Of a DNA stretch of 64,000 nt, positions 118-23,159 are shown in pieces (positions within the stretch are counted from its first letter, which is position 1; each line of letters opens with the position of its first letter). The translations under genes were made by a program, and so were the position numbers. Location of the stretch: assembly GCF_020567705.1 (NCBI RefSeq), contig NZ_JAJDJU010000004.1, forward strand, positions 1-64,000, in the 5' to 3' direction. The DNA is from Acidocella sp. KAb 2-4 (GTDB lineage Bacteria; Pseudomonadota; Alphaproteobacteria; Acetobacterales; Acetobacteraceae). The notes beneath the pieces were generated by a model, which did not search any database, was not told where the DNA came from, and saw nothing but the letters and a program-made list of their open reading frames with translations.

Positions 118-175
118 GTTTCGAACATACTACGAATCTGAGGGTCAGGAGTTCGAATCTCTTCGGGCGCGCCAC
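118..175 (+). repeat. tRNA-Arg(ACG) 3' fragment, attachment-site copy 1
   Basis: From 132 the sequence reads as the anticodon loop CTACGAA, the 3' anticodon strand, variable region, a T-arm (AGGAG / TTCGAAT / CTCTT), a 3' acceptor strand and an encoded CCA ending at 174. The bases upstream do not pair with the anticodon stem, so this is only a 3' half-gene. Positions 128-175 are identical to 23112-23159, and 118-175 match 23102-23159 with a single difference at 127. This is the footprint left when an integrative element enters the 3' end of a tRNA gene. The intact tRNA should lie to the left of the window. Confidence 0.8.
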
Positions 176-894: not shown

Positions 895-2590
895 CGGCCA
901 CCTGTTGGATTAGTGCAGCCGCACGCTCCTCGACCATTCGGAGTTCACGAAGTCGGACCGCCTGGGCGGGCAGCTTGCGATCCGGAGCCTCGTATGTGCC
1001 ATCAGCTCTCTTCACCTCCGTGCGCTTCGTAAAAAAATCTTCGTACATACGCGGGCCAACCCCTGTAAATGGAGTCACAACCATATGAGTTTGCTTTGAT
1101 TGAGTGCCGCCTATTGTCGGTGTTGTTTGGGTCGCAATCGCGTCCGAGTGCAATTCCGTTGCAAGACTCTTCACGTAAGGTTCAATGTAGTAGACGCGTG
1201 TCACGCCGGCTGTGACAAGGTGCCGGGCACAATTATGACAAGGATACGTCGTGCAGTAGAGGGTTGTCCCGACCGGTGAGATGCCGTTCCTTGCCGCCGA
1301 GAGGAGTGCGTTCATCTCCGCATGGATAGAACGGGAGTACTCCACGATATCTTTAATCCCGGGCAGGTCCGCCATAGCCACTGCATTATCTGCGAAGAAT
1401 TCGCGGATCCGGCGCTCTGCCTCGTCGCGCGCTTCGGCCGCAGGGTCGAAATCAGCGCTTCCTTGGGGATGGGCGGCTAGCGCGAGTCCTTTCGAAAATT
1501 TCTCCGCCAGAAACTTGCCAATGTCTTCTCGGAGTTGTTTCTTCTTGCGTTGATTGTGACAACCCGTGAACGTCACCTTTCCATCTTTCCACTCCCAAGC
1601 AAAGCAGCGGTGGTCCGGATCACTATCTTCATCGTAGACGCCGCCTCCGAACCTAGGGACATCATTGGTGCCAGTAGCGACGACGGTGCCATCCGAGGCG
1701 ACGAGTGCGGCGCCGACTTGTCGTGACAGACAGGAGGACTGCAATGCTGCAGCATGAGCATGGTACATAGCCCGTTCGCTCTTCGTCGGGCGCACGAGGC
1801 CTGACCCAAGGACCAGATTGACGAAGCGATGCAGATCCCCTGTTAGGCTTGCACCTGATTGCGAGGCCAAATTATTGTCGATAAAGAAGTCAGCGAGGTA
1901 AAAGGCGTCCCGCACCTGCTGACCATTCTTGCGCCCCTGGTCTTTCTCGTCACGATCCATATAATTTAGGACATCAACTTCCCCGACGCCCGCGTATTTA
2001 GACGTCGAGGTTTTGCCGCCTACTAGGCGATTTTCACGAATTGGACGATCACAATGGACGGCCACAAGCCGAAAAGATTGGTCGTAAACTTTCCGGAGAA
2101 GGTCGACCTCAGCAGAATGCTTCAATGAGTCGAGGATGAAGGCTCGTTTTTTTAATCCCGCCTCGTCATGGCCCCGAAGCGCTCTGATCTCGGCAATCGC
2201 CAATGCAGCAACGGCATCGTGACCATGCTGTTCTCGCAGGGTGTCCCCTGAGTCTTGAAGACCACTCGCACGATGGAAGCGCGCCGAGCCCGCTCCAATG
2301 CCATGCGTTTCCTGGAGAGTGTCATCCTGGCCCATATGGCGTGCGATAAGGCGGCTCAGTTTGATGACTTCTACCTGATACCCTTCCTGCTGCAGGAGCA
2401 CTTCAAGGCGGCTGCAGGCTGTAGAGCAGCCAGCTCCGACGTAGCCAACCACACCGATGACAAGCTCGAGGGACAGGGGGGAGATTTCCTCGCTCCCGGT
2501 ATTAGCGTCATCCTGCGGCTTGATAAGTTTCAGACCCGACACCGTAGCATTCCTCGCCAGCACCACCATTTGTCCCAGCTTTCGGTGCAT
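887..2590 (-). CDS. Anti-phage dCTP deaminase-like protein (P-loop + deaminase)
   Basis: 567 residues in two parts. Residues about 42-260 form a P-loop kinase-like domain with GYVGAGCST at 49-57. Residues about 275-530 form a cytidine/deoxycytidylate deaminase domain with the zinc motif HAE (His423) and PCHNC (Cys451, Cys454). This architecture is that of the antiphage dCTP/dCMP deaminases (AvcD type), which drain deoxycytidine nucleotides during infection. The family assignment is by architecture; substrate is not shown. ATG at 2590 lacks a clear ribosome site and a start 7 codons later is possible. Known AvcD loci carry a small RNA antitoxin just upstream; the 130 bp here shows no feature I can call. 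It sits inside the tRNA-bounded island with a DUF488-like partner downstream. Confidence 0.8.
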   Translation of the reverse strand: MHRKLGQMVVLARNATVSGLKLIKPQDDANTGSEEISPLSLELVIGVVGYVGAGCSTACSRLEVLLQQEGYQVEVIKLSRLIARHMGQDDTLQETHGIGAGSARFHRASGLQDSGDTLREQHGHDAVAALAIAEIRALRGHDEAGLKKRAFILDSLKHSAEVDLLRKVYDQSFRLVAVHCDRPIRENRLVGGKTSTSKYAGVGEVDVLNYMDRDEKDQGRKNGQQVRDAFYLADFFIDNNLASQSGASLTGDLHRFVNLVLGSGLVRPTKSERAMYHAHAAALQSSCLSRQVGAALVASDGTVVATGTNDVPRFGGGVYDEDSDPDHRCFAWEWKDGKVTFTGCHNQRKKKQLREDIGKFLAEKFSKGLALAAHPQGSADFDPAAEARDEAERRIREFFADNAVAMADLPGIKDIVEYSRSIHAEMNALLSAARNGISPVGTTLYCTTYPCHNCARHLVTAGVTRVYYIEPYVKSLATELHSDAIATQTTPTIGGTQSKQTHMVVTPFTGVGPRMYEDFFTKRTEVKRADGTYEAPDRKLPAQAVRLRELRMVEERAAALIQQVADV

Positions 2591-3115: not shown

Positions 3116-3913
3116 GTGAAGAGACCCGAGGAGTGCTTCGGGCCAGCCGGTACGGCTGTGCCCAATTCAACCGCCATCCCCATCTACGTCATCTCCCTCG
3201 ACCGCGCCCCAGAGCGCCGGGCGCACATGCGCGCGCAGATGGCGAGCCTGGGCCTTGCCCACGAGATCGTCACGGCCGTGGACGGGCGCCAGCCGATCGA
3301 GGGGCTGGAGCGACTCTACGACCGCCCCCGGCGCCTGCGCACCTACGGCACCGACCTCACCCGGGCGGAGATCGCCTGTTGCCTCAGCCACCTGGAGGCC
3401 TGCCGCCGCATCGCGCAGAGCGAGGCTGGCATCGGGCTGGTGCTGGAGGACGACGTGGTGCTCTCTGATGCGGTGGCGCCCGTGCTGGCCGATCTGGCCG
3501 GCATGCGGCGGGGGAGCTTCGACGTGGTGCGCCTGGCTGGGCTGCGCGAGCGCCGGGGCAGGATCGTCCGCCAGCTTTCCGGCGGGCATGCGCTGGTGCG
3601 CTTGGCCGTCGGGCCCTGCGGTGCCCAGGCCTACGTCATCACCGCCGCCGGCGCGCGCAAGCTCATCTCCTACTGCTCGCCGATCACCCAGCAAATCGAC
3701 ATCGCCCTGGACGAGACCTGCTTCAACCGGCTCGACACCTACGCCGTGCTACCCTACCCGGTCCGCCACGAGACCGGCATCGCCTCCACCATCGGCGAGC
3801 GCGCGGCCGACGACACGAGGCGCGGCCCGGTTGGGCTGTACCAGATCGCCCTCCGCACCCTGCGCCGGAATTTCAGCATCCTGCACGGCTTGCTGCGGAT
3901 GTACCTGGCATGA
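3116..3913 (+). CDS. Glycosyltransferase family 25 (LPS-type)
   Basis: About 265 residues. The fold begins with IPIYVISLDRAPERR (21-35), followed by AVDG (54-57), EIACCLSH (85-92) and the acidic motif LEDDV (EDD at 111-113), all hallmarks of GT25 enzymes that add sugars to lipopolysaccharide or glycoproteins. The reading frame is open back to a GTG at 3074, but GTG 3116 has AGGAG eight bases upstream and is preferred. The stop overlaps the next gene (ATGA), so the methyltransferase is probably co-translated. A second GT25 gene lies at 35284. Placement inside the island suggests modification of a surface glycan; the acceptor is unknown. Confidence 0.8.
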   Translation: MKRPEECFGPAGTAVPNSTAIPIYVISLDRAPERRAHMRAQMASLGLAHEIVTAVDGRQPIEGLERLYDRPRRLRTYGTDLTRAEIACCLSHLEACRRIAQSEAGIGLVLEDDVVLSDAVAPVLADLAGMRRGSFDVVRLAGLRERRGRIVRQLSGGHALVRLAVGPCGAQAYVITAAGARKLISYCSPITQQIDIALDETCFNRLDTYAVLPYPVRHETGIASTIGERAADDTRRGPVGLYQIALRTLRRNFSILHGLLRMYLA

Positions 3914-4716
3914 CCGGCGGCACCCTCCGCGACCGCTGCCCGGCCTGCGGCTCGGCCGATCTGGCCGAGGTCTTCACCCGCGCCGAGTGGCGCGACGCCG
4001 CCCTGCGGGAGCGGCGTGATGCTTGGGCGGCGATGGAGGCCGACCCGGAGCTGGCCTTCGATGCGTTCCTGCGCTGCGGCGCGTGCGGCACGCTCTTCAC
4101 CGACCGCGTGCCCCCGCCAGCCGCCCTCGGTCGCTTCTACGGCGCCTATTCCGGGACGGCCCGGTCCCTGGCGAAGATCAAGAGTAAGCTGGGGCTGGAG
4201 ACGCGGCGGCTCTTCTGCCTGCGGCTGGCGGTGCGCGGCCGGCGCTTCCTGGACGTGGGCAGCGGCATCGGCTGCGCGGTCGAGGCCGCGCGCCGGAACG
4301 GCTTCGCGGCGGCCGGGATCGAGCCGGGCGCGGATGCCGTGGAGATCGCCCGCCGGCACTTCCCGCGCAACGAGTACTTCGTCGGCACGCTGGATGCGCT
4401 GCCGGCCGGGCGGCAATTCGACCTCGTGCAGTGCGTCGAGGTGCTGGAGCACGTGCCAAACCCGCAGCGCCTGGTGGCGCAGCTCGCCGCCGCCGTGGCG
4501 CCGGGCGGCTTGCTCTTCCTCACCACGCCGGACGCCGGGCACCATACCGTGCGCGGCGACCCGTTGCGCTGGGGCATGGTCTGCCCGCCGGAGCACCTCA
4601 CCCTCTTCACCAGGGACGGCGTGCGCGCCGCGCTGGCGCCGCACTTCCACCGCGTCATCGTCCTGCCCAACAGAAAGCCCGGCGTCCGCGTGCTCGCGTT
4701 CAAGGGAAAAAACTGA
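3910..4716 (+). CDS. Class I SAM-dependent methyltransferase with zinc ribbon
   Basis: 268 residues. The N-terminus has two CxxC pairs (Cys10/Cys13 and Cys56/Cys59), a zinc-ribbon arrangement common in sugar C-methyltransferases and related glycan methyltransferases. Motif I of the Rossmann fold is LDVGSGIG at 114-121, followed by the usual acidic strand. It overlaps the GT25 gene by 4 bp. Together they look like a glycan-modifying pair. In-frame sequence after the TGA stop stays open to 4863 and would encode a hydrophobic, membrane-like segment (see findings). Confidence 0.8.
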   Translation: MTGGTLRDRCPACGSADLAEVFTRAEWRDAALRERRDAWAAMEADPELAFDAFLRCGACGTLFTDRVPPPAALGRFYGAYSGTARSLAKIKSKLGLETRRLFCLRLAVRGRRFLDVGSGIGCAVEAARRNGFAAAGIEPGADAVEIARRHFPRNEYFVGTLDALPAGRQFDLVQCVEVLEHVPNPQRLVAQLAAAVAPGGLLFLTTPDAGHHTVRGDPLRWGMVCPPEHLTLFTRDGVRAALAPHFHRVIVLPNRKPGVRVLAFKGKN

Positions 4717-5081
4717 AGAGCCGCAGGCCTGCGGCGCTGGCTGCTGGCCGTGCTGTTCATCCCACTGGTCGGGCCGTTCGTCTTCATGTGGCTGGTGGCG
4801 TTCCCGGGCAGGTCAATCATCCCACACACGGTGCCTATCCCTCCTACGCAACAAAGGACGGACTGAAGTTCAGGCAAATCGCCCTGCTCCGACGCCTCAG
4901 AGAGATGGACAGACCGGCGGAAGCAGGCCATCACCTTAAATCTCGAAGCTCTCTCGCGCGCGCCAGCGAGCCCTCCAACCAGAACCGCCCCCTTTGGCCT
5001 GATGGCCAACTGAAGCCCGCGTGACGTGGTATGGTGTGCATCTCCCGGAGGAAAAGTTTCCATCACCGAGGAGATCACACT
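4717..5081. other. Intergenic region, 365 bp, with in-frame hydrophobic extension
   Basis: No independent gene with a start and ribosome site was found. From 4717 to 4863 the methyltransferase frame stays open for 49 codons and encodes a strongly hydrophobic stretch (LLAVLFIPLVGPFVF), either a decayed gene tail or chance. The rest is featureless apart from the Shine-Dalgarno of the next gene at 5068-5073. Confidence 0.4.
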
Positions 5082-5804
5082 ATGAATTCTTGCACGATGA
5101 AAACTTCCGACAAGATCAAAGCCATGCGCCGCGACCATGGGATGACCCAAGAAGATCTCGCCGCCAAAGCGGGATGTGGACTCGCGACGATCCAGCGAGC
5201 CGAGAGCGGCAGGCGGCTCTCGGCCGACAGCCTTGCCTCGATCGCAGCCGCCTTTGGCATACCCGCGAGCGAACTCGCGGCAGACGCTGCGGACAACTTC
5301 GAGGCCTATCTGCCGTTGGAGCCGATTCGCAGCGGTCGTTGCCTAGTTGAACTATTACTCGACAGCTCGCGTATCGATTTTGGATTTTCGGAACTGGACA
5401 ATCTTGACGATGCCAAGGCGATCGAAATCTTCCATGATTTTTGTCACGCCCTAGCGGCACTTGAAAGACCGCTGTCACCCATCGTGCTGGTCTCACGCGA
5501 GCTCGAGACGCGTGATCATATCAAAGCTCTTGCCGAGAAGGGCTTCTGCGTTGGCGGCGCCGATTTTGAGGTCAAGGTCTACGAAGTTGATGACGACGGC
5601 GGTGGCGGCCCAGCTTTCCTGTTGGCACAATGGGACGAACGCCGCGTGGCGCTACGAGTAGGCCGTACCCCAGATGAAATTCTCCGCGCCCACGTGCTAC
5701 GCACTCTCGGCCAATGGGAAACTCCCCACGGAACTGCCATCATCTATCCACCTACCAAGCACCGCACCGAGGAAGCTGAAGCGCCAGACGAAGAGGAGAT
5801 GTGA
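5082..5804 (+). CDS. XRE-type protein with unknown C-terminal domain
   Basis: 240 residues. Residues about 7-60 are an XRE helix-turn-helix (HGMTQEDLAAKAG, then LATIQRAESGR). The remaining ~180 residues form an acidic domain I do not recognise, ending in a Glu/Asp-rich tail. ATG 5082 is chosen because GAGGAG stands 8 bases upstream; a frame extension to 5031 has no such site. The next gene, a broken TIR-like effector, starts 7 bases downstream, so this is probably the regulator or partner of that effector. Confidence 0.75.
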   Translation: MNSCTMKTSDKIKAMRRDHGMTQEDLAAKAGCGLATIQRAESGRRLSADSLASIAAAFGIPASELAADAADNFEAYLPLEPIRSGRCLVELLLDSSRIDFGFSELDNLDDAKAIEIFHDFCHALAALERPLSPIVLVSRELETRDHIKALAEKGFCVGGADFEVKVYEVDDDGGGGPAFLLAQWDERRVALRVGRTPDEILRAHVLRTLGQWETPHGTAIIYPPTKHRTEEAEAPDEEEM

Positions 5805-5810
5805 AGACGT

Positions 5811-6745
5811 ATGTTCAATATCATGGTAACCGCCAGCGATAACGCCTGGGAAGAAGGCGCATATACTTGGGATCGCACCCGCATCCTTGAATACACCGAG
5901 GAACCCATTCGCGGGCGACTTCACACGCTGTCGAACACGGCGCTTGAGGAACTCGCCTCCCTGCCAACCCTCTTCATGTATGAGCAAGATACCCAGGGAA
6001 CGCCGCGTGTCGGCAGGATCAAGCGCATCCAACAGCGCGGCTCCGAGTTCCGTGTGATTTTCGAGTTCGACGAAACGGTGCCCCCCCTCACCAGGGAGAA
6101 GATCGTTTCGCTCAAACGTCAGCTACAGCTCGCCAACTTTGAATTCAGCCGAACACATTGGGCGGTCAAGGAAGGAGACCTCTACGCCATCCTGAAGGAG
6201 GATGGCCACATCCGCGTGGCGATGCCAATACATCTACCTGAGCCGATCACTCCACCCACCCCCGCAGTGGATGTGACACCGGCGAAAGTTTTTTGGTTCA
6301 TGGCCGGGACGAAGCAGTCAAGCATGCGGTGGCGCGCTTTCTCGAACGCCGTGTCGGTCTCGATGTCGTGATCTTGAGCGAGCGCCCCAATCGCGGACGC
6401 TCGATCCTGACAAAGTTCCAACAAGAAGCCGATGGCGCCACGTTCGCGGTCATACTGATGACGGGTGATGATTCTGGAACGCTCCGCCCTGAACTTGCCG
6501 GCACCAGAACGGAGCCCACACCCCGACCTCGTCAGAATGTGATCTTCGAGATGGGTTTTTTCATCGGGCAACTTGGCCTCGACCGTGTCTGTGCACTAGT
6601 ACGACCCGGCGTCGAAAGGCCTTCAGACTATGACGGCATCGTCTAGGTGCCCTTCGACGACCAAGATGGTTGGCAACGAAAGTTGGTGACCGAACTTCAC
6701 GCCGCTAATCTGCCAGTTTCACCTACCTGGTGGCAACACACATAA
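5811..6745 (+). pseudogene. TIR-like (PF10137-type) effector gene, frameshift plus nonsense
   Basis: The first frame (5811-6290) encodes an N-terminal domain of about 160 residues ending in TPAKVF. The frame is lost in the T run at 6289-6294. Restoring one base joins it to a second frame beginning VHGRDEAVKHAVARFLE, continuing through RPNRGR, a QNVIFEMGFFIGQLG motif and SDYDGIV. These are signatures of the TIR-like nucleotide-binding family used as NADase effectors in CBASS/Pycsar-like defence. A TAG at 6644-6646 then interrupts the frame where relatives usually have tyrosine, and clear homology (VPFDDQDGW) continues to TAA at 6743. Two independent lesions argue for decay rather than one sequencing error. 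Confidence 0.8.
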
Positions 6746-6829
6746 ATTCTGTCTTTTCATCATTCAGATTGGGCAAAAAAAGCAGTGCCTTCCAGGGGTG
6801 GCTCCACCCCACAGCCACCCGGAATTTGC

Positions 6830-7099
6830 TCACCCTGCAGCAGGCGGCCCCCCTGACAACCATGCCCACATGGCACAGACGCCGGCGGCAGTCAGGACGA
6901 GATCGAGCTGGGGCGCTAGGCGCAGCTCGACCTCGGCCGCCAGCAGCGCCATCGCCACCGGCAGGGTGAGGATGATCTTCACCGCGACCGGCAGGCGGTT
7001 CCAAAGGCCGCGCTTCCTGGCCCCTAGGGCCGGTTTCTGCCCCTGGCACGGCGGCGCAATCTCGGTGACGATGGTGAGCAGGTTCTTCTCGTTCTGCAT
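6830..7099 (-). CDS. Small membrane protein of the mobile element
   Basis: 89 residues from an ATG at 7099 preceded by AAAGGA. A charged N-terminal third is followed by one or two hydrophobic segments (about residues 42-60 and 65-80). No family recognised. It lies downstream of the integrase on the same strand, separated by the long hairpin at 7131-7166. Confidence 0.5.
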   Translation of the reverse strand: MQNEKNLLTIVTEIAPPCQGQKPALGARKRGLWNRLPVAVKIILTLPVAMALLAAEVELRLAPQLDLVLTAAGVCAMWAWLSGGPPAAG

Positions 7100-7130
7100 G
7101 GTGGTTCCTTTCAAGTTCTGATTTGGCGAT

Positions 7131-7166
7131 GGATGGGGGAAGGCGCTTCAGCGCCTTCCCCCATCC
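7131..7166. repeat. Perfect 16-bp inverted repeat (hairpin H1)
   Basis: Arms 7131-7146 and 7151-7166 are perfectly complementary around a TTCA loop. There is no T run on either side, so a simple rho-independent terminator is not obvious. It resembles the G-rich hairpin at 11360-11405 and lies just after the integrase stop codon. Confidence 0.75.
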
Positions 7167-7197
7167 TCGCGTCGGTGCGGGTTTCGATCGGCCTGCC

Positions 7198-8415
7198 TCA
7201 CGCGGCGTTCTGCGTCTCCGCCTCGCTCGCCACCGGCGCCGGCAGCGCCAGCAGGTTCCACGCCCGCAGCGCAGTCGTCGCGGTGTCGATCAGGCGCTGC
7301 GGGCTGTGGTGCGCGTACCTCTGGGTCGTGCTGAGCTGCGTGTGCCCCAGCACGGTGCCGATCTCGTTCAGAGGAGTTCCAGCGTTGGCCAGGGCACTTG
7401 CGAAGCTGTGCCGCAGGTCGTGGATGCGCAGGTCCTCGGGAAGCCCCGCCGCGATCCTGGCCCGCCGCCACGCGCCGCGCACGCCCTCGACGGGCGCGCC
7501 GGCCCGGCGGGCGCTGGGGAAGACGTACGGGTTGTCCGGGTGGAGCTGCCGCTTGGCGAGCTGGCGCCGCAGGATCGCCACCGCAACGGCCGAGAGCGGG
7601 ATGTGCCGGGTGCGGCCGGACTTGGAGCGGGGCACGGTGAGCAGGCCGCGCTCCAAATCCACGTTCTCCCACCTCGCCTTCAGCGCCTCGCCCCGGCGGG
7701 CGCCGGTGACGGCGAGCAGCGCCAGCACCGCCGCGGCGGTCTCGTCCGGGTCGGCGGCCAGCGCCCGGAAGAGCGCCTGCGTTTCTGCCGGGGACAGGTA
7801 CTTGTCGCGGTGCACCTCGCGCAGCATCCCCGGCGAGCTGGCCGGGTTCTTGCCCTCGTACAGCTCCCACTTCATTGCGAGGTTGAACATCGCACGCAGC
7901 GTCGCCAAGTGCCGGTTGACGGTACCGTTGGCCAAACCTTCCGCCACCATCTTGCGCCGCAGCTCGGCGACGTCCTGCGGCGTCACCTCGTCCAATGCCT
8001 TCTTGCCCAGGGCGGGCAGGATGCGCTTGCGCAGGTACGCTTCGACATTGTGCGCGGAGCGCTGGCGCTCCTGCACGTGCGGCAGGTATCTGTCGCGGGC
8101 GAACTCATCGATCGTTGGCACGGCCCTGAGCTTTGCCTTCTCTGCCACAGGGTCGCCCCCCAGGCTGACCTTGGCCTTGAGCTGCTCGGCGCGGCGCCGG
8201 GCCTGGTCGACGGTGACGTCGCCGAGGCGACCGAGCCGGACCTCGTGCTGGCGGCCGCGCGCGTCCTTGTACCGGAAGTAGAACGTCACGGTGGTGCGGC
8301 GCTGCTCGGCGATGAAGCCGACCAGCCGGTCGTCGAAGATGCGGTGCTTTGCCGCTCCTTCGGGCAGCGGCGGCAGCTTCTGCACGAGGCTGCGCGTGAT
8401 GGTCGTTGCGGGCAT
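7198..8415 (-). CDS. Tyrosine-type site-specific integrase
   Basis: 405 residues: an N-terminal arm-binding domain (about 1-95, DUF4102-like), a core-binding SAM-like domain (about 100-195) and a catalytic domain. The catalytic set is complete: Arg240 (TGARRGEAL), His332/Arg335 (HDLRH), His358 (LGHTQ) and nucleophile Tyr367 (TTQRY). ATG 8415 has AAAGGAG five bases upstream. It should integrate and excise the element, plausibly at the tRNA-Arg 3' end found at both borders. It lies about 7 kb inside the left border rather than next to it, which suggests that the 23-kb segment is composite or rearranged. Confidence 0.93.
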   Translation of the reverse strand: MPATTITRSLVQKLPPLPEGAAKHRIFDDRLVGFIAEQRRTTVTFYFRYKDARGRQHEVRLGRLGDVTVDQARRRAEQLKAKVSLGGDPVAEKAKLRAVPTIDEFARDRYLPHVQERQRSAHNVEAYLRKRILPALGKKALDEVTPQDVAELRRKMVAEGLANGTVNRHLATLRAMFNLAMKWELYEGKNPASSPGMLREVHRDKYLSPAETQALFRALAADPDETAAAVLALLAVTGARRGEALKARWENVDLERGLLTVPRSKSGRTRHIPLSAVAVAILRRQLAKRQLHPDNPYVFPSARRAGAPVEGVRGAWRRARIAAGLPEDLRIHDLRHSFASALANAGTPLNEIGTVLGHTQLSTTQRYAHHSPQRLIDTATTALRAWNLLALPAPVASEAETQNAA

Positions 8416-8533
8416 GGTGCTCCTTTCGCGTTAGGGCATGGGGGTCATGGGGGCCATGGGACGAGCGCCAGCACCCGGGGGCTTGCGGCCCCGGGCTGCG
8501 GCGCGATCCTGGCGGCTTGGGATGGAGCGAGGC

Positions 8534-8803
8534 TCACCCCTGCGCCGTGCTCTGGCAGCGGCGGGCCTCGATGAACGTTTCGAGGTCCTCTTGCCTGTAC
8601 CTGACGTATTTGCCGGAGAGCTTGATGTAGGCCGGCCCCTCGCCGGTCCCGCGCCAGCGTTCGAGCACGCTGGGCGGGACGCCCAGGCGCTCGGCGGCCT
8701 GATTGGCGGTCAGCAGGGGGCGGAGTTCGGTTGGGCCGGCCGTGGTGGTTTCCGCGGCGGCGGTGTGCTTGGTCTGGCTGGTCTGGCTGGTCTTGTCGGC
8801 CAT
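8534..8803 (-). CDS. Excisionase-like helix-turn-helix protein (AlpA/Xis type)
   Basis: 89 residues from ATG 8803, with GGAGA 7 bases upstream. A Thr/Ala-rich N-terminus precedes a MerR/excisionase-type helix-turn-helix: LLTANQAAERLGVPPSVLER, then the wing with YIKLSGKYVRYRQEDLETF. Such proteins bind the element ends and bias the integrase toward excision, and often control element genes. It is encoded upstream of and in the same direction as the integrase. Confidence 0.8.
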   Translation of the reverse strand: MADKTSQTSQTKHTAAAETTTAGPTELRPLLTANQAAERLGVPPSVLERWRGTGEGPAYIKLSGKYVRYRQEDLETFIEARRCQSTAQG

Positions 8804-9002
8804 GCCGGGTCTCCATGGTGCTGGGCGCCGAGGGCGTTCTTGCCCCGGCTTCGTCCATGGAGGTGTTCGGTGGCCGCACTTTGTCGCCAAAGGTCGTTCG
8901 TGGCGTTGCTCGCCGCACCGCTTGCAATCCGCCAACGCACCTTGCGGACAAAACTCCGCGCCGCGCGTTGGCGATTCTTCGGCTGATCCCCTGGGTCTTT
9001 CC

Positions 9003-9629
9003 CTACCCTGGCTCGCCGGCGGCGTCCGCGATGAGGCGCGCGATGCGCACCCTTCGCGTCTCGGCCTCGATGGCGTCCTGGATGGCGTGCCGGCATTCCC
9101 AGAGCCGCCGGTTGTACGGCGCGCGATCGGTCCAGTCCCGCAACGCCTCGTCGATGACGATCAGCAACAACTCCGGCACCACGCCCTCCTCGCGGCTGGC
9201 GGGGTCGGGGCAGAGCTCGATGTGCAGATCGCCGCAGCGCGCCACGGTCCATTGGTACGGCGACGGCTGAGCGCCGGGGCGGAAATCCACACCGCTGCCC
9301 AGCGTCTCGCCCACGTGCATGGACCGGGCCGCGCGGCCGAGCGCATCCAGCACGGCCAGCGCGCCCGCCTCCGGCATCCGCGCGTGCTCAACCGCCATGC
9401 GGGCCTGCGCCACGCAGATGAGCTGGCGCAGCGTCCAGCCCGAGGGCGCGGAGCAGACCGTTCCGTACCGGACCGGCAGGCCGAAGCCGTCGCCGCCGGT
9501 GTCGAGCACGACCGCCCAGAAGTTCTGCCCCCAGAACGGTCGCACGTCGGCGTTGCTGAACAGCGCGAAGCGCTCCCCGTCGGCGGTGCGGCGTGCGGCG
9601 ACGATGGATTTCTCGTCGAGGTCGATCAT
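9003..9629 (-). CDS. Hypothetical element protein B1 (module copy 1)
   Basis: 208 residues, no recognised domain, signal peptide or membrane span. It is clearly related to B2 at 10084-10776: both carry a central W-x-L/V-x-Q-L-I-x-VA-x-A-R helix, a WTxARxG segment, the motif LCPD followed by a basic/acidic stretch and a hydrophobic helix, and both end in a GEPG/GEPD tail. GGAGG sits about 10 bases before ATG 9629. It follows A1 by 41 bp. The two A-B pairs are a duplicated cassette. Confidence 0.7.
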   Translation of the reverse strand: MIDLDEKSIVAARRTADGERFALFSNADVRPFWGQNFWAVVLDTGGDGFGLPVRYGTVCSAPSGWTLRQLICVAQARMAVEHARMPEAGALAVLDALGRAARSMHVGETLGSGVDFRPGAQPSPYQWTVARCGDLHIELCPDPASREEGVVPELLLIVIDEALRDWTDRAPYNRRLWECRHAIQDAIEAETRRVRIARLIADAAGEPG

Positions 9630-9670
9630 GGGCGTGCGCCTCCGTCGGCGCGGTCGACCTCGAACACCAG

Positions 9671-9943
9671 TCAGGAATCGTCGCTGTTGATCGTCGCCGC
9701 CACGCCCTCGGGAATCCAGAAGCAGACCAGCTCCTCCTCGTCGTCGTCGTCGTTGAGGCGGAACAGGTCGGCCGGCGTCTTCACCTCGATGCCGAGGGTG
9801 GCGAGGTACTTGATGACGTGCAGCGGGTCCTCGCCGGTGCGCACCGCGTCGGCGAAGTTGACGCGCTGCACCTCGCTCAATCTTTCGATGTCGGAGTAGC
9901 GCCGCAGCAGCTCCTCCAGCGTCTCGGTTTTCGTTTCGTCCAT
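9671..9943 (-). CDS. Small acidic element protein A1 (module copy 1)
   Basis: 90 residues with no recognised domain. It has an N-terminal LEELLRRY helix, a central DPLHVIKYLATLGIEV segment and a run of acidic residues (NDDDDEEE, about 64-71) before a hydrophobic end. The A2 protein at 10773-11072 repeats the same order: LEALLRRH, DPLHLLPYLNDLGVRI, then EEE. The start at 9943 has TGGAG 8 bases upstream, and a hairpin (9960-9992) lies in the leader. A role with B1 is inferred only from the repeated pairing. Confidence 0.7.
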   Translation of the reverse strand: MDETKTETLEELLRRYSDIERLSEVQRVNFADAVRTGEDPLHVIKYLATLGIEVKTPADLFRLNDDDDEEELVCFWIPEGVAATINSDDS

Positions 9944-9959
9944 GTGATGCTCCAGACGC

Positions 9960-9992
9960 AGGAAGCCCTGCCTTTGAAGGGCGGGGCTTCCT
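9960..9992. repeat. Leader hairpin upstream of A1 (H2)
   Basis: Nine-bp outer arms (9960-9968 with 9984-9992) close around an inner partly paired GCCC/GGGC section with a TTCAAA-type apex on the minus strand. It lies 16 bases upstream of the A1 start, in the same position as the hairpin before A2. Possible regulatory leader or element-specific repeat. Confidence 0.6.
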
Positions 9993-10083
9993 GCTCGTTC
10001 GGGGGGATGATTGCCCGGGCCAGATGCGGCCTGTGCAATGGCATCACATGCGATTGACCGGCGCCGCCGATGCGCCACCCGAC

Positions 10084-10776
10084 TCAGCCCGCGTCCGGCT
10101 CTCCGTCGTAATCCGCCACATGCGCCGCCCATCGCGCCTTGGCCCGTGCAGCCTCCAGGACCAGCGCCGCGCGTACTTCCCGACGCGCCTCCCAGCAGCT
10201 TCGCCGCCAGGGCGTGACCGGCAGCCAGGACGTAAGCGCCATTTCGAGCACGAGCAAAAGTTGCTCGGGCGTGACGCCGCGCTGCCGCGCCTCGGCATCC
10301 GGGCACAGGGCAATGGAGAACTGCCCAGCCCTGGCCGCGGTCCACGGGAAGGGCGAGGCCACGCCGCCCGGCGGGGCAGGCTCGAATGAAACCGGCGGCA
10401 CGATGTCTCTCTCCTGGGGCTCGCGATGCACGGCGGCGGCGTGTTCAAGGTGGCGCACGATCTCGGCCAGGGCGGGCTCGCCGGAATGCGCCAGCTCGGC
10501 CTCGAACCGCGCCATCGCCACGGAGATGAGCTGGGCAACGTTCCAGCCATCGAACGGGCCGGAGATGGCGAGGCGGATGAATACTCCGCCATCCGCGATC
10601 TCGACCGCCGCACCCCACAAGCGCAACGGCCGGCCCGGGATCAGGTCGATGGCGACGAGGGCGACATTGCGCCCGGCGCTGGTGGTGTGCCAGGCGACAA
10701 CGTCGCGGTTGAGGCGCCGTCCGGTGGCGTTACCGCCGGTCTGGCCGGTGCCGGTTGCCATGCTGGCTGACGTCAT
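10084..10776 (-). CDS. Hypothetical element protein B2 (module copy 2)
   Basis: 230 residues, paralogous to B1. Shared elements are the Q-L-I-S-VA-x-A-R helix, the WTAARAG segment, ALCPD, a QLLLVLE helix and the GEPD tail. The N-terminus is longer and Thr/Gly-rich. The start is placed at ATG 10776 because it overlaps the A2 stop codon as ATGA, a standard translational coupling; an in-frame start 6 codons upstream is less likely. Function unknown. Confidence 0.7.
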   Translation of the reverse strand: MTSASMATGTGQTGGNATGRRLNRDVVAWHTTSAGRNVALVAIDLIPGRPLRLWGAAVEIADGGVFIRLAISGPFDGWNVAQLISVAMARFEAELAHSGEPALAEIVRHLEHAAAVHREPQERDIVPPVSFEPAPPGGVASPFPWTAARAGQFSIALCPDAEARQRGVTPEQLLLVLEMALTSWLPVTPWRRSCWEARREVRAALVLEAARAKARWAAHVADYDGEPDAG

Positions 10777-11072
10777 CGCGTGAAGACCGCCCATTGCCCG
10801 TCCGTTACGAGATAGACGGCAATTCCTTCCTCGACGCGATAGGCTTGGACTTCTTCCTCGCCGGGGTCGGCGCAGGCCGCGAGCAGGTCTTCCAGCGTGC
10901 CGATCCGCACGCCCAAATCGTTAAGGTATGGCAACAGGTGCAGTGGATCATCGCCGCGCACCAGGGCATCGGCCAGGCGAAGTTGCGGCACGTGCCGGGG
11001 CAGATCGCGCCCGGCGGCGTGGCGCCGCAAGAGCGCCTCAAGCGCCTCGGCCTGGGGGAAGGTTTGGGTCAT
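10773..11072 (-). CDS. Small acidic element protein A2 (module copy 2)
   Basis: 99 residues, paralogous to A1 (DPLHLLPYL near the middle and an acidic stretch near residue 72) but with a longer C-terminus (AVYLVTDGQWAVF). ATG 11072 has TTGGAG about 8 bases upstream, and the leader sequence from this site to the start is nearly the same as that of A1. Stop and B2 start overlap by 4 bp. No known family. Confidence 0.7.
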   Translation of the reverse strand: MTQTFPQAEALEALLRRHAAGRDLPRHVPQLRLADALVRGDDPLHLLPYLNDLGVRIGTLEDLLAACADPGEEEVQAYRVEEGIAVYLVTDGQWAVFTR

Positions 11073-11096
11073 GTGATGGTCTCCAAGGCGCGATGC

Positions 11097-11120
11097 GGCC
11101 AGCCCCTTCAAGGGCTGGCC
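11097..11120. repeat. Leader hairpin upstream of A2 (H3)
   Basis: A perfect 9-bp stem, 11097-11105 with 11112-11120, around the loop CTTCAA. It sits 25 bases upstream of the A2 start codon, the position equivalent to H2 before A1. Confidence 0.7.
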
Positions 11121-11359
11121 GTCTCGCGCGGGGTTGGGGTTGCTGCCCGCACGGCGCGGGCGAGACCATGACATGCGCTTGGAGGCAGGCTCTGCCACAC
11201 TTGAGCTGGACGTGGTACGGTATAGTAATGAGATATGCGGCGTCCTGATGTACCTCGCCGTCCGAGTTCCGCTTGCGTATCTCCGCGAGCCATTGACGAT
11301 TTGGCATCGGATCGTCCGCGCTCTGACTTAGGCGACAAGTTGAACGCGAGCAGAGAACA

Positions 11360-16695: not shown

Positions 16696-17577
16696 ATGAC
16701 GCGGAAGGGCATGGGCATGGAGAAGACGATCGACGGTTGGGTGTGCGGCGCGCTGGGCGTGGTGATTTTCAGCGGGTCTATGCCCGCCACGCGCGCGGCG
16801 CTGGCCGGGTTCGATCCGCTCTTCCTCACCGTGGCGCGGGCGGCACTGGCGGGGATGCTGGCGGTAACCCTGCTTCTCGCCTTCCGCCAGCCGCGCCCGG
16901 CGCGGGGCGATCTCGCCTCCCTCGTCGTTGTGGCGCTGGGCGTGGTGCTGGGCTTCCCGCTGCTCTCCGCCCTGGCCCTGCGGCACATCAACGCCGCGCA
17001 GTCACAAATTTTCCTGGGGCTGCTGCCGCTCGCCACGGCCACGTTCGGCGTGCTGCGCGGCGGGGAACGTCCGCGCTGCGGGTTCTGGCTCTTCGCCGGA
17101 CTGGGCAGCGCCTGCGTGATCGGCGTCGCGCTGCGCCACGGCGCGGGCCTGCCTGTGGCCGGGGTGGCGCTGATGCTGGCCGCGATCCTGGTGTGCGGGC
17201 TGGGTTACGCGGAGGGGGCGAAACTCTCACGGCGGTTGGGCGGCTGGCAGGTCATCTCCTGGGCGCTGGTCCTGGCTCTACCCCTGATGCTGGTCCTGTG
17301 CTGGCTGAACGCGCCCGCCACGCTGATGCATGTGCCGGGCGGCGCCTGGGCGGGGCTCGCCTATGTGGCGGTCTTCAGCATGCTGGTTGGGTTCGTGTTC
17401 TGGTATCGCGGCTTGGCGCTGGGCGGCATCGCGGCCGTGGGTCAGCTGCAATTGCTGCAGCCTGGGCTTGGTCTTGCCGCCTCCGCGCTAGTGCTGCATG
17501 AGACCGTGCCGCCCGTCATGGCTGTAGTCACCTTTGCCATCGTCCTCTGCGTCGCGGGGGCTAAGAGGTTCGTGTGA
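16696..17577 (+). CDS. DMT-superfamily (EamA) transporter
   Basis: About 293 residues with ten predicted hydrophobic segments in two EamA halves (first half from VCGALGVVIFSGS, second from GVALMLAAILVCGLGYAEG). It is likely an exporter or importer of an amino acid or other small metabolite in the inner membrane. ATG 16696 has ACAAGG upstream; ATG 16711 is an alternative. The partner MocR regulator suggests the substrate is an amino acid- or PLP-linked compound, which is inference. Confidence 0.82.
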   Translation: MTRKGMGMEKTIDGWVCGALGVVIFSGSMPATRAALAGFDPLFLTVARAALAGMLAVTLLLAFRQPRPARGDLASLVVVALGVVLGFPLLSALALRHINAAQSQIFLGLLPLATATFGVLRGGERPRCGFWLFAGLGSACVIGVALRHGAGLPVAGVALMLAAILVCGLGYAEGAKLSRRLGGWQVISWALVLALPLMLVLCWLNAPATLMHVPGGAWAGLAYVAVFSMLVGFVFWYRGLALGGIAAVGQLQLLQPGLGLAASALVLHETVPPVMAVVTFAIVLCVAGAKRFV

Positions 17578-17579
17578 GG

Positions 17580-18698
17580 TTAAGCCAGAAGCCCTTCAAA
17601 ATCTCCGGCTTTGGCAATATCACCAATGAGTCCTGTTAACCTAGGCTCTTTATTTCGTGCACGTCTAAAATCCTCGGCCGTACGTTTATCTACATAAAGA
17701 ACTGTGCAATACGCAGCGAGGACAGCTAAATGGCTATCAATGTGGTCACTTCCTGGACGCAACGAACGAGGCTGCCCGTGAACCTTAAGTGCTTCACTGA
17801 TGACCCGGCTAGGCAGCACATCCATCGATACTTTTTTAAGTTCTTGAAACGATCGGCCAGTCTTCGAAGCTACAACTCGCAGCTGACTTCTAAACAACGC
17901 AAGCCTATTCAGGTCTTCGAGAACGCTCTCGTCACGAATCTCGCTTTCATCCACGCCCTGGTCGACCAACATCAACACCAGCATCTCACGTACCGTCGCG
18001 CCCGGCGGCGGCGTCCTAGCCAATACCTGCGTCATGAACTCGTCGGCCATCTTACGTGCCCCAATGGTATCGCCGCCAGTACTCAGAATCGCCTCTCGCA
18101 GAGCCCGTGCATAGCTCAAGTCGAGTTGCATGCGTATCTGGTCAGGTGAATTGAACGGCAATTTGGCCAATTCACCGATTGTTAGCTTCTCATCAAATGT
18201 CCGTAATGGCCCAAACGTCGCGATCATGTTAGCCGTCCCCTTGCGGGATTGTACGTTTGGCCGCGAAGCTTCCCATACTCTAATATCTTCACCAATTGCC
18301 TGCCTGCCATTTCCTATTGTTAGCAATAGCTCCCGAGCTCGATTGCGAACGGCAATGAGATCACCGCACCCTTCGGCGGCTGCGATCGCTTCGGCTGCCA
18401 GCACTTGCACGATCGAGCCTAATAATCCCTCTTTCTCATTGGGTAAGCGTAAATAAGCCACGAATGGCAATTGTTGGAGAAATTCGATCCGCGTTCGGGC
18501 GGTTGAATCATTCTCGACTCCGAGCAACTCCTCAAGATGATGCCAGGATAGGAGCGGCAGGCGTCCCTGTTCGAGCAGTCTCCCGTGCAACGTATGCGCC
18601 CGCCGTCTCCGCTCTGGATTTGGAGACTGGGCTGCGTCCAACCATTTTCCCCAATGCGAGCTGTCCGGCGCAATGATCGTAGCAGTAAAAAGAGTCAA
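17580..18698 (-). CDS. Hypothetical protein, possibly PIN-like; last gene of the ATPase operon
   Basis: 372 residues without a firm family match. The N-terminus places an aspartate after a hydrophobic strand (TATIIAPDSSHW, Asp12), a central segment contains HHLEELL, and the C-terminus has DHIDSHLAVLAAYC followed by VLYVDKRT. This spacing of acidic residues after strands recalls PIN-like nucleases, but the match is weak. The start is TTG 18698, which overlaps the stop of the preceding gene as TTGA, so translation is coupled. The stretch is visibly more AT-rich than its neighbours. It is likely the third component of a defence-type operon. Confidence 0.6.
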   Translation of the reverse strand: MTLFTATIIAPDSSHWGKWLDAAQSPNPERRRRAHTLHGRLLEQGRLPLLSWHHLEELLGVENDSTARTRIEFLQQLPFVAYLRLPNEKEGLLGSIVQVLAAEAIAAAEGCGDLIAVRNRARELLLTIGNGRQAIGEDIRVWEASRPNVQSRKGTANMIATFGPLRTFDEKLTIGELAKLPFNSPDQIRMQLDLSYARALREAILSTGGDTIGARKMADEFMTQVLARTPPPGATVREMLVLMLVDQGVDESEIRDESVLEDLNRLALFRSQLRVVASKTGRSFQELKKVSMDVLPSRVISEALKVHGQPRSLRPGSDHIDSHLAVLAAYCTVLYVDKRTAEDFRRARNKEPRLTGLIGDIAKAGDFEGLLA

Positions 18699-20035
18699 AG
18701 CGTAATTCCATTACGATATATGACCCGTTGTGGAATCGGTCCACCATTTGCAATTAAACCTCGAGTCAACGAACGCAGCAAATCAATCAGGTCGACCAAG
18801 AGCTTGTCGTCCTCGGCACTTGAGTATGGAGAGACCAAGCTGCCATGCATAACTCGATTCCGAACCTTGTTCCAAGCTCGATGTTGATCCGGCGTGATCG
18901 TGCCAGCATCTCGAAGCTCACGAAGTGCTGTAGCGGTGGTTATTTCGAGTGCGCGTGATACGGCGCTTTTGGCGACACCTTTGAGGTATGCGCCTCCCGT
19001 CCACTCGTCGATATGCCTCTTCAACATCTCGACGCTGGCGGAATCAACATCTGCTCGGTGTGCGCCCCTGGGGACAAGAATCTTCACCATGCCCTCAACT
19101 GCGCTTGCGAAGGTGAGCGCCCACACCCAGCGCGAACCGCGCGCCGCCTGGATCACTTCGACGTACAGCGCAGTCACCTTGTTTGCCTCGAAATTGGGTT
19201 GCCCTTGATCGTCCCGTGCCGAGACGATGTAGGTGAGGAGTCCTGCATAGGTCTGCCAAAAGCCACTTGCATCTGCGAGGATATGGTCGCCGTGCCAGAG
19301 TGCGCAGGCATTGGACTCGGCCCGCCAAGCGGGCGACGGGCGGATCGAGACCATCGTCCGTGTCGGGAGAGCGCGGATGATGAATCTCGGATAGATGAGC
19401 TGACCGAACATGATCCTCAACGGCTCACCCAGCCAATGCTCTGTGAACATCAGGGGCAGCACCTCACTGGCCGCGGCGCCAACGGTCAGCATGTCGGCTG
19501 CGTCGTCGAGGGTGAAGATAACTTCGGTTCCAAGGACAGAAAGGCGATGCTCAACGGTCGCGCCCTCCTCTTCCGGTCTCGGAAAGAATCGGCGCAGGAT
19601 GATCCGGGCAAGATGTTCGCGTGGGAGCAGGAACGTCACCTCCGTGCCAGGCTGATTTCCGCCTGGTTCGTCCGTCATCATCCCCTCGATCTGCCCGGAG
19701 AATGTCCATTCACCTCCTGACTCGGGCACATACACTTTCGGGATGGTCCATCCGCCAAGGAGGGACAGCCCCTCCTCCGTGACAACCTGCAGGCGCTGTC
19801 GATGAAGTCCGTCGTAGGGATCGCCGTGGATGCGGTTGAGCGCATGCAGGGCGTGTCTGACGTCTGAAGGCAGTCCGTGCATCTCGTAGCGAATTGACGT
19901 GAGAGACTCCACGGTCAATTGGCCGGAGCCAACCGCAACCGGCGGCTCGTGGTCGGCGGCCAGCAGAGTCATCGATCGACAGGGGATCACAGTTCCAGGC
20001 GTCGCAAGGCGTTTCCAGCGGTCAGCAATGGGCAT
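18695..20035 (-). CDS. HEPN-like hypothetical protein, middle gene of the ATPase operon
   Basis: 446 residues. The first ~270 are a mixed alpha/beta region I do not recognise. The C-terminal ~150 are helical and contain KVRNRVMHGS, an R-x4-H motif (Arg392, His397) of the type that forms the active site of HEPN ribonucleases. Proteins with this arrangement (for example ApeA-type) act in abortive phage defence; equivalence is not shown. The gene lies 81 bp after the ATPase gene and overlaps the next gene by 4 bp. ATG 20035 has no strong ribosome site. Confidence 0.6.
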   Translation of the reverse strand: MPIADRWKRLATPGTVIPCRSMTLLAADHEPPVAVGSGQLTVESLTSIRYEMHGLPSDVRHALHALNRIHGDPYDGLHRQRLQVVTEEGLSLLGGWTIPKVYVPESGGEWTFSGQIEGMMTDEPGGNQPGTEVTFLLPREHLARIILRRFFPRPEEEGATVEHRLSVLGTEVIFTLDDAADMLTVGAAASEVLPLMFTEHWLGEPLRIMFGQLIYPRFIIRALPTRTMVSIRPSPAWRAESNACALWHGDHILADASGFWQTYAGLLTYIVSARDDQGQPNFEANKVTALYVEVIQAARGSRWVWALTFASAVEGMVKILVPRGAHRADVDSASVEMLKRHIDEWTGGAYLKGVAKSAVSRALEITTATALRELRDAGTITPDQHRAWNKVRNRVMHGSLVSPYSSAEDDKLLVDLIDLLRSLTRGLIANGGPIPQRVIYRNGITL

Positions 20036-20116
20036 GAGGTCTGTCGTTCCGAAAAGAGGTAACGCCTGACGCGTTGTGGCGCCGAATTGTGCTGATCATT
20101 GGTCGAGCGCAGATCG

Positions 20117-22756
20117 CTACTTCCTGGGCTTCATCTGTGGTCGAGCGGCCTCAGTCTCTTCCTTGGCTGCGTTGAAGTCAGCAATCAGAGATTCGAGATC
20201 GGCGAGGTGGGCCGCGAACTCTTCGGGCGTAGGTACGGGAACCGTGTCGGAAGCGGGATTGTCGTGGCTATGGGTGTTGGCACGGGTCATGCCCTCGTGG
20301 AACCGGATCGCGAGAGCGTCTGGTAGCGTGACGTAACGTAGAAGCTGCGTCTGAATGACATCGGTCCCGCGACGCACGATGTTGCGGAAGATCACTTCCT
20401 CGACCATGCGCTCATAGGTGTCGCGCAGTCTCCCGTAGAGGCCCTTGATCTCATACTCATAGTCAGCAGGGCTGTTGGCGCTGAGCTTGCGGAGCACCGC
20501 GAGCCGCACCTTGATCTGTCCAATCCGTTTGAAGACGTCGAGGCCTTTCCATACCATGCCGGCCGGGTCAATTTTGCCAGCCGCATCCTGGTCGCTGAAG
20601 AGCGCGACAGTGACCGGCTCGATACCCACCGCGTCTGCTGCTCTGCACAGCTCGTTGAAGAAGACGATATCATGAGTGAACACGATGACTTGGCGCTGGG
20701 TTGCCTCCTGCGCGATCCGCTCGGCGACACGGCTGCTGCGGTCTCGGTCCAAGGAGGAGACCGGATCGTCCACGATGATTGGCCCCGAGCCATCGGTCAG
20801 GGCAACCTCCGTCAAGAAGCTGGCGAGCGCCAGGGCGCGCTGCTCCCCTTCGCTCAGAATCTGAGAGGTGACCCTGGTTAGTTTGGTCTTCGGATCGATC
20901 TGGAACTCGGCCTTAAGCTGGCCACTCTTCCGGGCCAGGCTGACCTTGAGGTTGCTGATGTCGAGCCCGTCGCACTCGCGTTCGAACCTAGCCACCACGG
21001 CGGATGATAGGTGCGCGTCGATGAGCTCGTTGGCGCGCTTGGTGATGCCGGTGGTCACGCAGGAGCTGATCGCCTTGGTGAAGGCACCATCGAGCACCAT
21101 CAAATCACGACGCGTAGTCAGCTTCGCCTTATTGGCATTGAGGATTTTCTGATCCTCGAGTTCGGCCTTCTCTGCGGCAAGCTTGTCTCGCCATGCCGCG
21201 TCCTCCGCCAAGGAGAGTTGCTCCTTCTCGACGCCGAGCTTGACAGCAAGCGCTTCGACATCGGCGACCGGAGAGACGAGCTCCGCGACAGGCGAACTCT
21301 CCCCGCCATCCAGGCGGACTGTGGCGTCGGCAAGGCGATCGGCAACCGCTCGCTCGAACGCCGACAGCTTGTCGGCAAGATCGGCATCGCGCGATCTGAC
21401 CTGTTCCAGGCGCTCCGGGAAGTCATCGGCACGCAGTTTTGCAAGTGTGGGAAGTGCCTCCTTCGCTGCAGCAAGCGCTTCCTCATCGAGTGATGCGGCC
21501 TTGTCCAGGGTGTCGTCCATGTAGGCCTGGAACCGCTGCATACGGTCAACGCCTTCCGGGAGCAGCGGCTGCTGACACAGCACACAAGCGGCGTCGACAT
21601 CTTGGTTGACGACCGGGAAGTCCTGACCCGGATAAGCCTCGGCGAGAGAGTAGTTGCGAGCAGCAACCCACAGGGCGCGCCAACTCTCGCTGCCCACGCC
21701 GTCGAGCGGTTCGTCGTCGAACAGGGCGCCCGCCGAAACCTCGGCGGCCCTACGGGCCGCGATGGCCCTCTCCTTCAGGGCTGTCAGCGCCGCGAGTGGC
21801 TCGTCAGATAGAGCCGTCAACGCGGATCGGCACTCCTCGGCTACGGCTTCGACCCATGATAGGAGCGTTGCCAAGTCCGCCCGGGCCGTCGATCCTGATG
21901 CGAGTATGCCTGCGATCTCGTCGATGCGTGTGGCGTCTGTGTCGGAGAATTTCGTCGCGGTCTCAATCTCGAGGTCAGTCGTCTTGCTGTTGATCGCACT
22001 GGCGAACCTCTGCGGGGTGGTGTCTCGTACGGGTGCGAAGGTGATGGCACTCAACTCGATCTTGCCTCCGACCGTTGCCAAATGTTCTGCCTCTAGCATC
22101 GCCTTGAGTTCGAGGCACGCAGCGTTCAGGCGGTGAGGAAGCGCGAGGCCGAATGGCAGGAACCTGATCTGGTTGCCACTATCGACGTAGAGCTGTGCCG
22201 AAGCGCTATCGAAGACGGAGACTTGCATCAACTGTGGGGCAGCGGCCATGCCCGCTGTCCAGGCGATGGGCTCGTCGCCTGCGCCTGCGTCGATGACGAT
22301 GTCTGCCGCCTGCACGCCGCTGCCGTCACCGTAGACATCCCCGAAGACCTTTAGTGTTACCGGATTCTCGATCCTGGTGCGACATGCCGTCCGAAGTATC
22401 CGGACGAATCCGCTCTTGCCGCTCCCGTTGCGGCCATAGACGATGGTGAGGGCCTTGGGGCAGAAGCTCAATGAAGCCTTGGCCACGAGGCGATTCACGC
22501 CCTCGACATTGGCGATTCCCTTGAGGATGATGGGTGCCTGCTTGCTCCCGCCGAAATGCTCCTTGGCGAAGGGGGTCGGTATGGGAGGCTCGCCTTCAGT
22601 GGCAAGTCCGGCGGCCACTTTCACCATCGCAAGCAGCTCTTCGCGGTCGGTGTCCGTCAACTCGTTCGATATCGCGAGGCGGCGAAGACAGTCCTGCCGC
22701 CAGAGGGGCAGGGTGGTGGACCATGCGATGATGTCGTCAATTGGCTCCTTCGCCAT
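20117..22756 (-). CDS. SMC/PrrC-like AAA ATPase with zinc-hook-type CxxC
   Basis: About 879 residues. Walker A GRNGSGKS (108-115), an ABC signature LSEGEQ (634-639), Walker B ending IIVDDPVSSLD (660-670) and a following THD histidine (695) define an ABC/SMC-type ATPase. A long helical middle carries CVLC (391-394), reminiscent of the zinc hook of RloC/Rad50. The ~180-residue C-terminal extension is rich in Arg, His and Glu (for example ANTHSHD) and may be an effector region. PrrC/RloC-like (AAA_13) proteins are sensors or effectors in phage defence. ATG 22756 follows GAAGG; a TTG 14 codons earlier is possible. First gene of a three-gene operon. Confidence 0.85.
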   Translation of the reverse strand: MAKEPIDDIIAWSTTLPLWRQDCLRRLAISNELTDTDREELLAMVKVAAGLATEGEPPIPTPFAKEHFGGSKQAPIILKGIANVEGVNRLVAKASLSFCPKALTIVYGRNGSGKSGFVRILRTACRTRIENPVTLKVFGDVYGDGSGVQAADIVIDAGAGDEPIAWTAGMAAAPQLMQVSVFDSASAQLYVDSGNQIRFLPFGLALPHRLNAACLELKAMLEAEHLATVGGKIELSAITFAPVRDTTPQRFASAINSKTTDLEIETATKFSDTDATRIDEIAGILASGSTARADLATLLSWVEAVAEECRSALTALSDEPLAALTALKERAIAARRAAEVSAGALFDDEPLDGVGSESWRALWVAARNYSLAEAYPGQDFPVVNQDVDAACVLCQQPLLPEGVDRMQRFQAYMDDTLDKAASLDEEALAAAKEALPTLAKLRADDFPERLEQVRSRDADLADKLSAFERAVADRLADATVRLDGGESSPVAELVSPVADVEALAVKLGVEKEQLSLAEDAAWRDKLAAEKAELEDQKILNANKAKLTTRRDLMVLDGAFTKAISSCVTTGITKRANELIDAHLSSAVVARFERECDGLDISNLKVSLARKSGQLKAEFQIDPKTKLTRVTSQILSEGEQRALALASFLTEVALTDGSGPIIVDDPVSSLDRDRSSRVAERIAQEATQRQVIVFTHDIVFFNELCRAADAVGIEPVTVALFSDQDAAGKIDPAGMVWKGLDVFKRIGQIKVRLAVLRKLSANSPADYEYEIKGLYGRLRDTYERMVEEVIFRNIVRRGTDVIQTQLLRYVTLPDALAIRFHEGMTRANTHSHDNPASDTVPVPTPEEFAAHLADLESLIADFNAAKEETEAARPQMKPRK

Positions 22757-23101
22757 GATGCCTTCTGCGCGCAGTTCCCTATCTCGTCCAGATCGCAACC
22801 GAACCTTGCCCCGCCGCCAATCTTAAAGCCAGTCTGGCGCGATCGGCGAGTCAACGCCAGCCCTGCCTGAGAAAAGTGAGAATCTCGAACTGCCCCGGCC
22901 CCGGAATTAACCGACGCAGAGTCGGGAGAGGGGTGCCCGCCCCATCCTCTCTTCCCCCCACAATCCCCTCGGGCGACCGACGGGGGGGGGGAGGCGATCT
23001 GCGGTCAACGTGGGGTGCAACCCGCCCGGGTTGCGTGCCACGGCATGACGATGGTAGGCCATCGAGGGTGATCGCAGGCGATCAAAGACGGTCCGACTTT
23101 C
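22757..23101. other. Intergenic region at the right end of the island
   Basis: No gene supported. It contains a homopolymer of ten Gs (22982-22991), and from about 23000 a stretch weakly similar to positions 15-117, the sequence before attachment copy 1. This is what two related element ends would give. Confidence 0.5.
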
Positions 23102-23159
23102 GTTTCGAACCTACTACGAATCTGAGGGTCAGGAGTTCGAATCTCTTCGGGCGCGCCAC
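23102..23159 (+). repeat. tRNA-Arg(ACG) 3' fragment, attachment-site copy 2
   Basis: Identical to copy 1 over 48 bp (23112-23159 versus 128-175), including anticodon loop, T-arm, acceptor strand and CCA (23156-23158). As in copy 1, the upstream bases do not restore the anticodon stem, so this too is only a 3' half-gene. It marks the right border of the island segment. Similarity continues ungapped to at least 23245, including the 17-mer at 23229-23245 identical to 245-261. Confidence 0.8.

Follow-up and report, generated by a model that had tools for sequence, protein, structure and literature searches.

An RloC-family gene, most likely encoding an anticodon nuclease, beside an undescribed HEPN-like gene and an overlapping PIN-like gene in a tRNA-Arg island of Acidocella

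Do an ATPase and two nuclease-like proteins encoded side by side form one defence machine, or are they simply neighbours? The question is raised by three genes on the reverse strand of contig NZ_JAJDJU010000004.1 of Acidocella sp. KAb 2-4 (assembly GCF_020567705.1), of which we analysed positions 1 to 64,000 (the window). A preliminary description had read them as an undescribed operon in which an SMC/PrrC-like ATPase (gene 1) controls a HEPN-like (gene 2) and a PIN-like (gene 3) effector. The locus is most likely an RloC-family anticodon nuclease gene beside two undescribed genes in loose linkage, of which one is HEPN-like and the other, overlapping it, PIN-like. We consider it quite probable that these are neighbours carried as cargo of a genomic island, a self-contained RloC-type enzyme and two nuclease-like genes, and not a three-part machine (coordinates in Table 1).

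The gene 1 product matches the PADLOC model PDC-S06 (PDLC04891) over nearly its full length (E 6.6e-165, profile positions 3-854 of 858) and Pfam AAA_13 at 68.4 bits (cut-off 36); an alternative TTG start at 22798 would add 14 residues. We aligned the protein with 14 relatives (n=15): six from plasmids, five with 60-66% identity to it and the sixth with 51%, and eight from whole genomes with 24-30%, among them a second copy from the window's own genome. That second full-length PDC-S06/RloC-like gene lies at G000:C31:1061-3625 (L045). Invariant in all 15 sequences are the Walker A motif, the signature SEGE (residues 635-638), the Walker B motif (DDP, 663-665) and the switch histidine H695, as well as both cysteines of a zinc-hook motif (CxxC) in the insert that separates the two ATPase halves. 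Downstream of H695 the only invariant positions are G727, R778, E782 and H831, the last three forming Arg-x3-Glu-x48-His with a serine before the histidine. Every feature listed earlier for this protein (Walker A and B, ABC signature, CxxC and C-terminal extension) is present.

These features correspond to the hallmarks of RloC, for which the cited part of PMC2610378 gives Arg-X3-Glu-X36-52-His, Ser often preceding the His, a CXXC zinc hook and lengths of 658-897 amino acids (aa). Like the RloC proteins of Geobacillus kaustophilus and Acinetobacter baylyi, gene 1 has ABC motifs flanking a CxxC insert, and its triad spacing and its 879 aa fall within the published ranges; the likeness is judged from the published motif description, and both the activity and the tRNA target are predicted here. 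In the same part of that source, replacing any residue of the triad abolished RloC activity, and a survey of HEPN domains counts the RloC nuclease domain among them (PMC3710099, part cited). PrrC likewise joins an ABC ATPase to an R-E-H triad but, as described in the cited part of PMC2610378, is 341-416 aa long with no zinc-hook insert and is tied to a type I restriction-modification enzyme. The term PrrC-like was apt, RloC-like being more exact. The notion of a bare sensor falls since gene 1 has its own invariant nuclease triad, and no separate effector is required. Gene 1 is most likely a member of the RloC family and a predicted anticodon nuclease. Nor is it undescribed, as PADLOC already lists its family as candidate PDC-S06, a label without a mechanism that appears as a list entry in the cited part of PMC11514479. 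The RloC assignment is added here: the invariant triad would link PDC-S06 to RloC, at least for the PDLC04891 branch. Among 200 genomes sampled from the phylum, 8, counting that of the window, match this model over its full length, and 25 have a match of any kind.

By homology, gene 1 would be sensor, switch and effector in a single polypeptide. DNA ends would be sensed by the Rad50-like ABC ATPase and its CxxC insert; for RloC, activation of anticodon cleavage by linear DNA and ATP hydrolysis has been published, and its activity is both started and sustained by linear DNA, according to the cited part of PMC3874168. ATP hydrolysis would then release the C-terminal R778/E782/H831 nuclease, and cleavage of tRNA anticodons would halt translation during infection or DNA damage. 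Anticodon-nuclease activity, the DNA-end trigger and the role in defence are thus all predictions from relatedness.

Gene 2 begins 81 base pairs (bp) downstream of gene 1. Its product combines a beta-rich N-terminal part, which may serve in sensing or targeting, with a helical C-terminal part containing R392-N-R-V-M-H397, and R392 and H397 are invariant among 11 aligned sequences. The HEPN definition in the cited part of PMC3710099 is R-x4-6-H with a polar residue after the R, and the residue after R392 is polar throughout (N in 9 of 11, H in 2). HEPN proteins also have an upstream acidic residue, often within Ex3[KR]; here E314 is invariant in all 11, and the window protein has the K/R four residues past it, although its relatives do not conserve this position. 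No family in Pfam, NCBIfam, PADLOC or PHROGs passed its cut-off, and the structure model has a weak structural resemblance to HEPN ribonucleases. RnlA/RNase LS and other HEPN ribonucleases share with it the R-x4-H at a helix end and the invariant upstream Glu, but no common sequence family was detectable. ApeA is a single-gene HEPN defence protein with an N-terminal part followed by HEPN, the same plan as here; however, neither the middle protein nor its 10 aligned relatives match HEPN_Apea. With a strong motif and weak fold evidence, these observations point to a conserved HEPN-like family that no library searched has named, and the ribonuclease activity suggested by its motifs is putative. 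Its surroundings vary. In nine Rhizobiaceae loci the homologue follows an Abi-family gene, in part of them with an HNH gene between, and elsewhere it has other neighbours. Six Rhizobiaceae loci (L002 at 3396-10374, L004, L026, L027, L028, where the row is seen only in part, and L030) have the row nucleotidyltransferase, DUF6602, hypothetical, Abi-family, HNH and gene 2 homologue, five of the six with a PIN gene on the opposite strand; this row may be a separate defence cluster. The homologue in L005 is interrupted or frame-split, a sign of turnover.

Gene 3 overlaps the gene 2 stop by four bases (TTGA). The overlap is real because the open frame, 376 aa in all, leaves room for at most 4 further upstream codons. 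PIN nucleases have acidic residues in the order D, E, D, D, and the third protein has D12, E56/E57, D321 and D337 in this order. All four clear relatives that cover these residues keep them (L010, L012 and the fragmented L011 and L036); L036 has N in place of D318, and in L042, a fifth and doubtful match, neither D321 nor D337 is retained. The homologues in L011 and L036 are interrupted or frame-split, again a sign of turnover. No profile (Pfam included) and no PDB entry matched gene 3, and when a thin alignment of three sequences was compared by hhalign with 14 PIN proteins, the probability was 0.2%, about that of shuffled columns. A single-sequence model had a predicted local distance difference test score (pLDDT) of 37.9 and a predicted template modelling score (pTM) of 0.21, values too low for the model to be of use. 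PIN-like is thus a statement about the acidic motif, and gene 3 a putative nuclease. Of the preliminary description, then, the layout of three same-strand genes with a TTGA overlap and the R-x4-H motif were borne out; HEPN-like is upheld by the invariant motif with a weak fold resemblance, and PIN-like by the acidic residues but not by any profile.

The three genes do not recur together in the places examined. Searching the available flanks, which are of unequal length, with tblastn (E <= 1e-3), we found partner genes at 0 of 23 other gene 2 places (25 loci, three being one place), 0 of 5 gene 3 places (7 loci, three being one place; one place is a 44-residue fragment) and 0 of 14 gene 1 places; the co-occurrence on which the earlier operon depended was found at none of them. 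Flanks of gene 2 mostly extend about 9 kilobases (kb) on both sides, with almost nothing downstream in L023 and L028 and little at L032 and at the G122 place; those of gene 1 are about 1-1.5 kb in eight loci, and its plasmid set is the best 6 of 265 records with gene 1. GC content is about 53-63% across the three-gene block, compared with 64-71% in most intervals on either side and 60.5% in one on the left. At third codon positions (GC3) it falls from 0.747 for gene 1 to 0.515 for gene 3; within gene 2 it is 0.706 over the first two thirds and 0.534 over the final third. Ten gene 2 relatives have no such sharp drop (a shift along the gene of at most 0.06), and low GC3 is no mark of gene 3 because two intact relatives have 0.74.

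In the model of a single operon, the ATPase would detect phage or damage and then permit the HEPN and PIN proteins to act as its ribonuclease effectors. This would account for the shared strand, the short gap, the overlap and the position of all three genes within one island, and an ATPase sensor beside a nuclease is a common defence design. The model is nevertheless very improbable, given the invariant triad of gene 1 itself, the absence of partners at the 23, 5 and 14 other places examined and the difference in GC3 between genes 1 and 3, and the undescribed operon with two controlled effectors is not supported. Gene 1 might instead encode a DNA-repair ATPase of the Rad50/SbcC kind that belongs to mobile elements, and no anticodon nuclease: its ABC parts match PDB chains of RNase L inhibitor/ABCE1, Rad50 and AriA, and in the plasmid loci L014 and L016 the homologue comes after genes for a 'DNA repair exonuclease' and an AAA ATPase, and such a pair is also found nearby in L015. 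Against this, Rad50, SbcC and T4 gp46 are without an equivalent of the RloC C-region (PMC2610378, part cited), and R778, E782 and H831, with G727, are the sole invariant residues after H695, which makes a repair ATPase improbable.

The observations that weigh against neighbours grouped by chance concern genes 2 and 3. GC3 drops sharply inside gene 2, and the low value is shared with gene 3, which counters a purely accidental grouping and, as a break in composition, would be compatible with the 3' part of gene 2 and gene 3 travelling as a pair. The break is a likely recombination point; a joint arrival of the 3' part and gene 3 would account for it, and the pair would then have existed in some donor, which we did not find here. 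Genes 2 and 3 could accordingly be a coupled ribonuclease module (HEPN-like and PIN-like) independent of the adjoining RloC gene, given also the TTGA overlap with so little room for another start and a break that has no counterpart in ten relatives. Yet neither gene has the other as partner at the 23 and 5 other places, the broken gene 3 homologue of L011 overlaps another, different upstream gene, and the higher GC3 of intact gene 3 relatives means that the low value is not typical of the gene. On balance we think such a module unlikely. Somewhat less likely still, gene 2 may be the founder of a new HEPN defence family that stands on its own and detects a phage component with its beta-rich N-terminus; in this lineage it would have captured a PIN-like second nuclease by translational coupling, giving a two-ribonuclease module beside RloC; if true, tRNA and other RNA would be attacked in parallel from the tRNA-Arg island. 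We retain island cargo of neighbours as the favoured explanation, with gene 2 encoding a separate protein, in which the HEPN-like C-terminal part would be a ribonuclease, and gene 3 a putative PIN-like nuclease overlapping it.

The island itself is a 23-kb integrative element at a tRNA gene, framed by two tRNA-Arg(acg) 3' ends. Their 35-base core has exactly two copies in the window (140-174 and 23124-23158; mean in shuffles, 0.00), and the 46-base stretch at the right end is common to many genomes of the genus among the matches listed (DNA search, 38 genomes). Intact tRNA-Arg(acg) genes occur in L113, L117 and L119 (G000:C23, a different contig from the same genome as the window); ARAGORN and Rfam found no complete tRNA or other RNA gene in the window. 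In L117 a module related to window positions 6845-11174 (77% identity) lies between the intact tRNA-Arg and a 3' fragment. Repeats, integrase and this counterpart are typical of an integrative element, so the earlier term tRNA-bounded island was right. Of the two other defence loci attributed to it, one is clear, a dCTPase-type gene overlapped by a small gene at 361-894. The second was not recovered in the PADLOC scan, which covered the dCTPase gene and five other open reading frames of the island: two of the five had no match, and the others were a methyltransferase resembling mad2 (E 1.7e-11), hits to generic helix-turn-helix models and a weak PDC-M45B match (E 5.5e-4). To the left of gene 3, all three relatives compared conserve the MocR/EamA pair, and the matches stop at 17572-17573 (two) and 17513 (third), adjoining the gene 3 end.

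Table 1. Features of the three-gene locus and its island, in window coordinates.
Feature	Position	Strand	Remarks
Gene 1, ATPase gene	22756-20117	-	879 aa from ATG
Gene 1 Walker A, residues 108-115	22412-22435	-	G108, N110, G111, G113, K114, S115 invariant 15/15
Gene 1 CxxC zinc-hook motif, residues 391-394	21575-21586	-	C391, C394 invariant 15/15; insert between ATPase halves
Gene 1 Arg778-x3-Glu782, predicted anticodon-nuclease triad	20411-20425	-	Invariant 15/15
Gene 1 His831, third predicted triad residue	20264-20266	-	Invariant 15/15; E782-x48-H831, Ser before
Gene 2, middle gene and protein	20035-18695	-	446 aa; beta-rich N-terminal and helical HEPN-like C-terminal part; model pLDDT 82.6, pTM 0.78
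Gene 2 R392-N-R-V-M-H397, HEPN-type motif	18845-18862	-	R392/H397 invariant 11/11; end of helix 382-396 (helix from model)
Gene 3, third gene and protein	18698-17580	-	372 aa from TTG; PIN-like D12, E56/E57, D321, D337 kept in 4/4 clear relatives covering them
dCTPase-type nucleotide-depletion defence gene	887-2590	-	PADLOC E 1.2e-153
Island tyrosine integrase	7198-8415	-	Phage_integrase E 1e-35
tRNA-Arg(acg) 3' fragment, left end repeat	126-174	+	98% over 49 bases to intact tRNA-Arg gene ends in L113/L117
tRNA-Arg(acg) 3' fragment, right end repeat	23113-23158	+	46/46 bases identical to intact tRNA-Arg ends in L113/L117

These results replace a supposed three-part system with testable claims about single genes. 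They tie PDC-S06, at least in its PDLC04891 branch, to RloC, which gives this candidate family a predicted target, tRNA, and a predicted trigger, DNA ends. Gene 2, in turn, would belong to a conserved HEPN-like family that is undescribed and unnamed in the libraries searched, with members on plasmids and contigs of Alphaproteobacteria.
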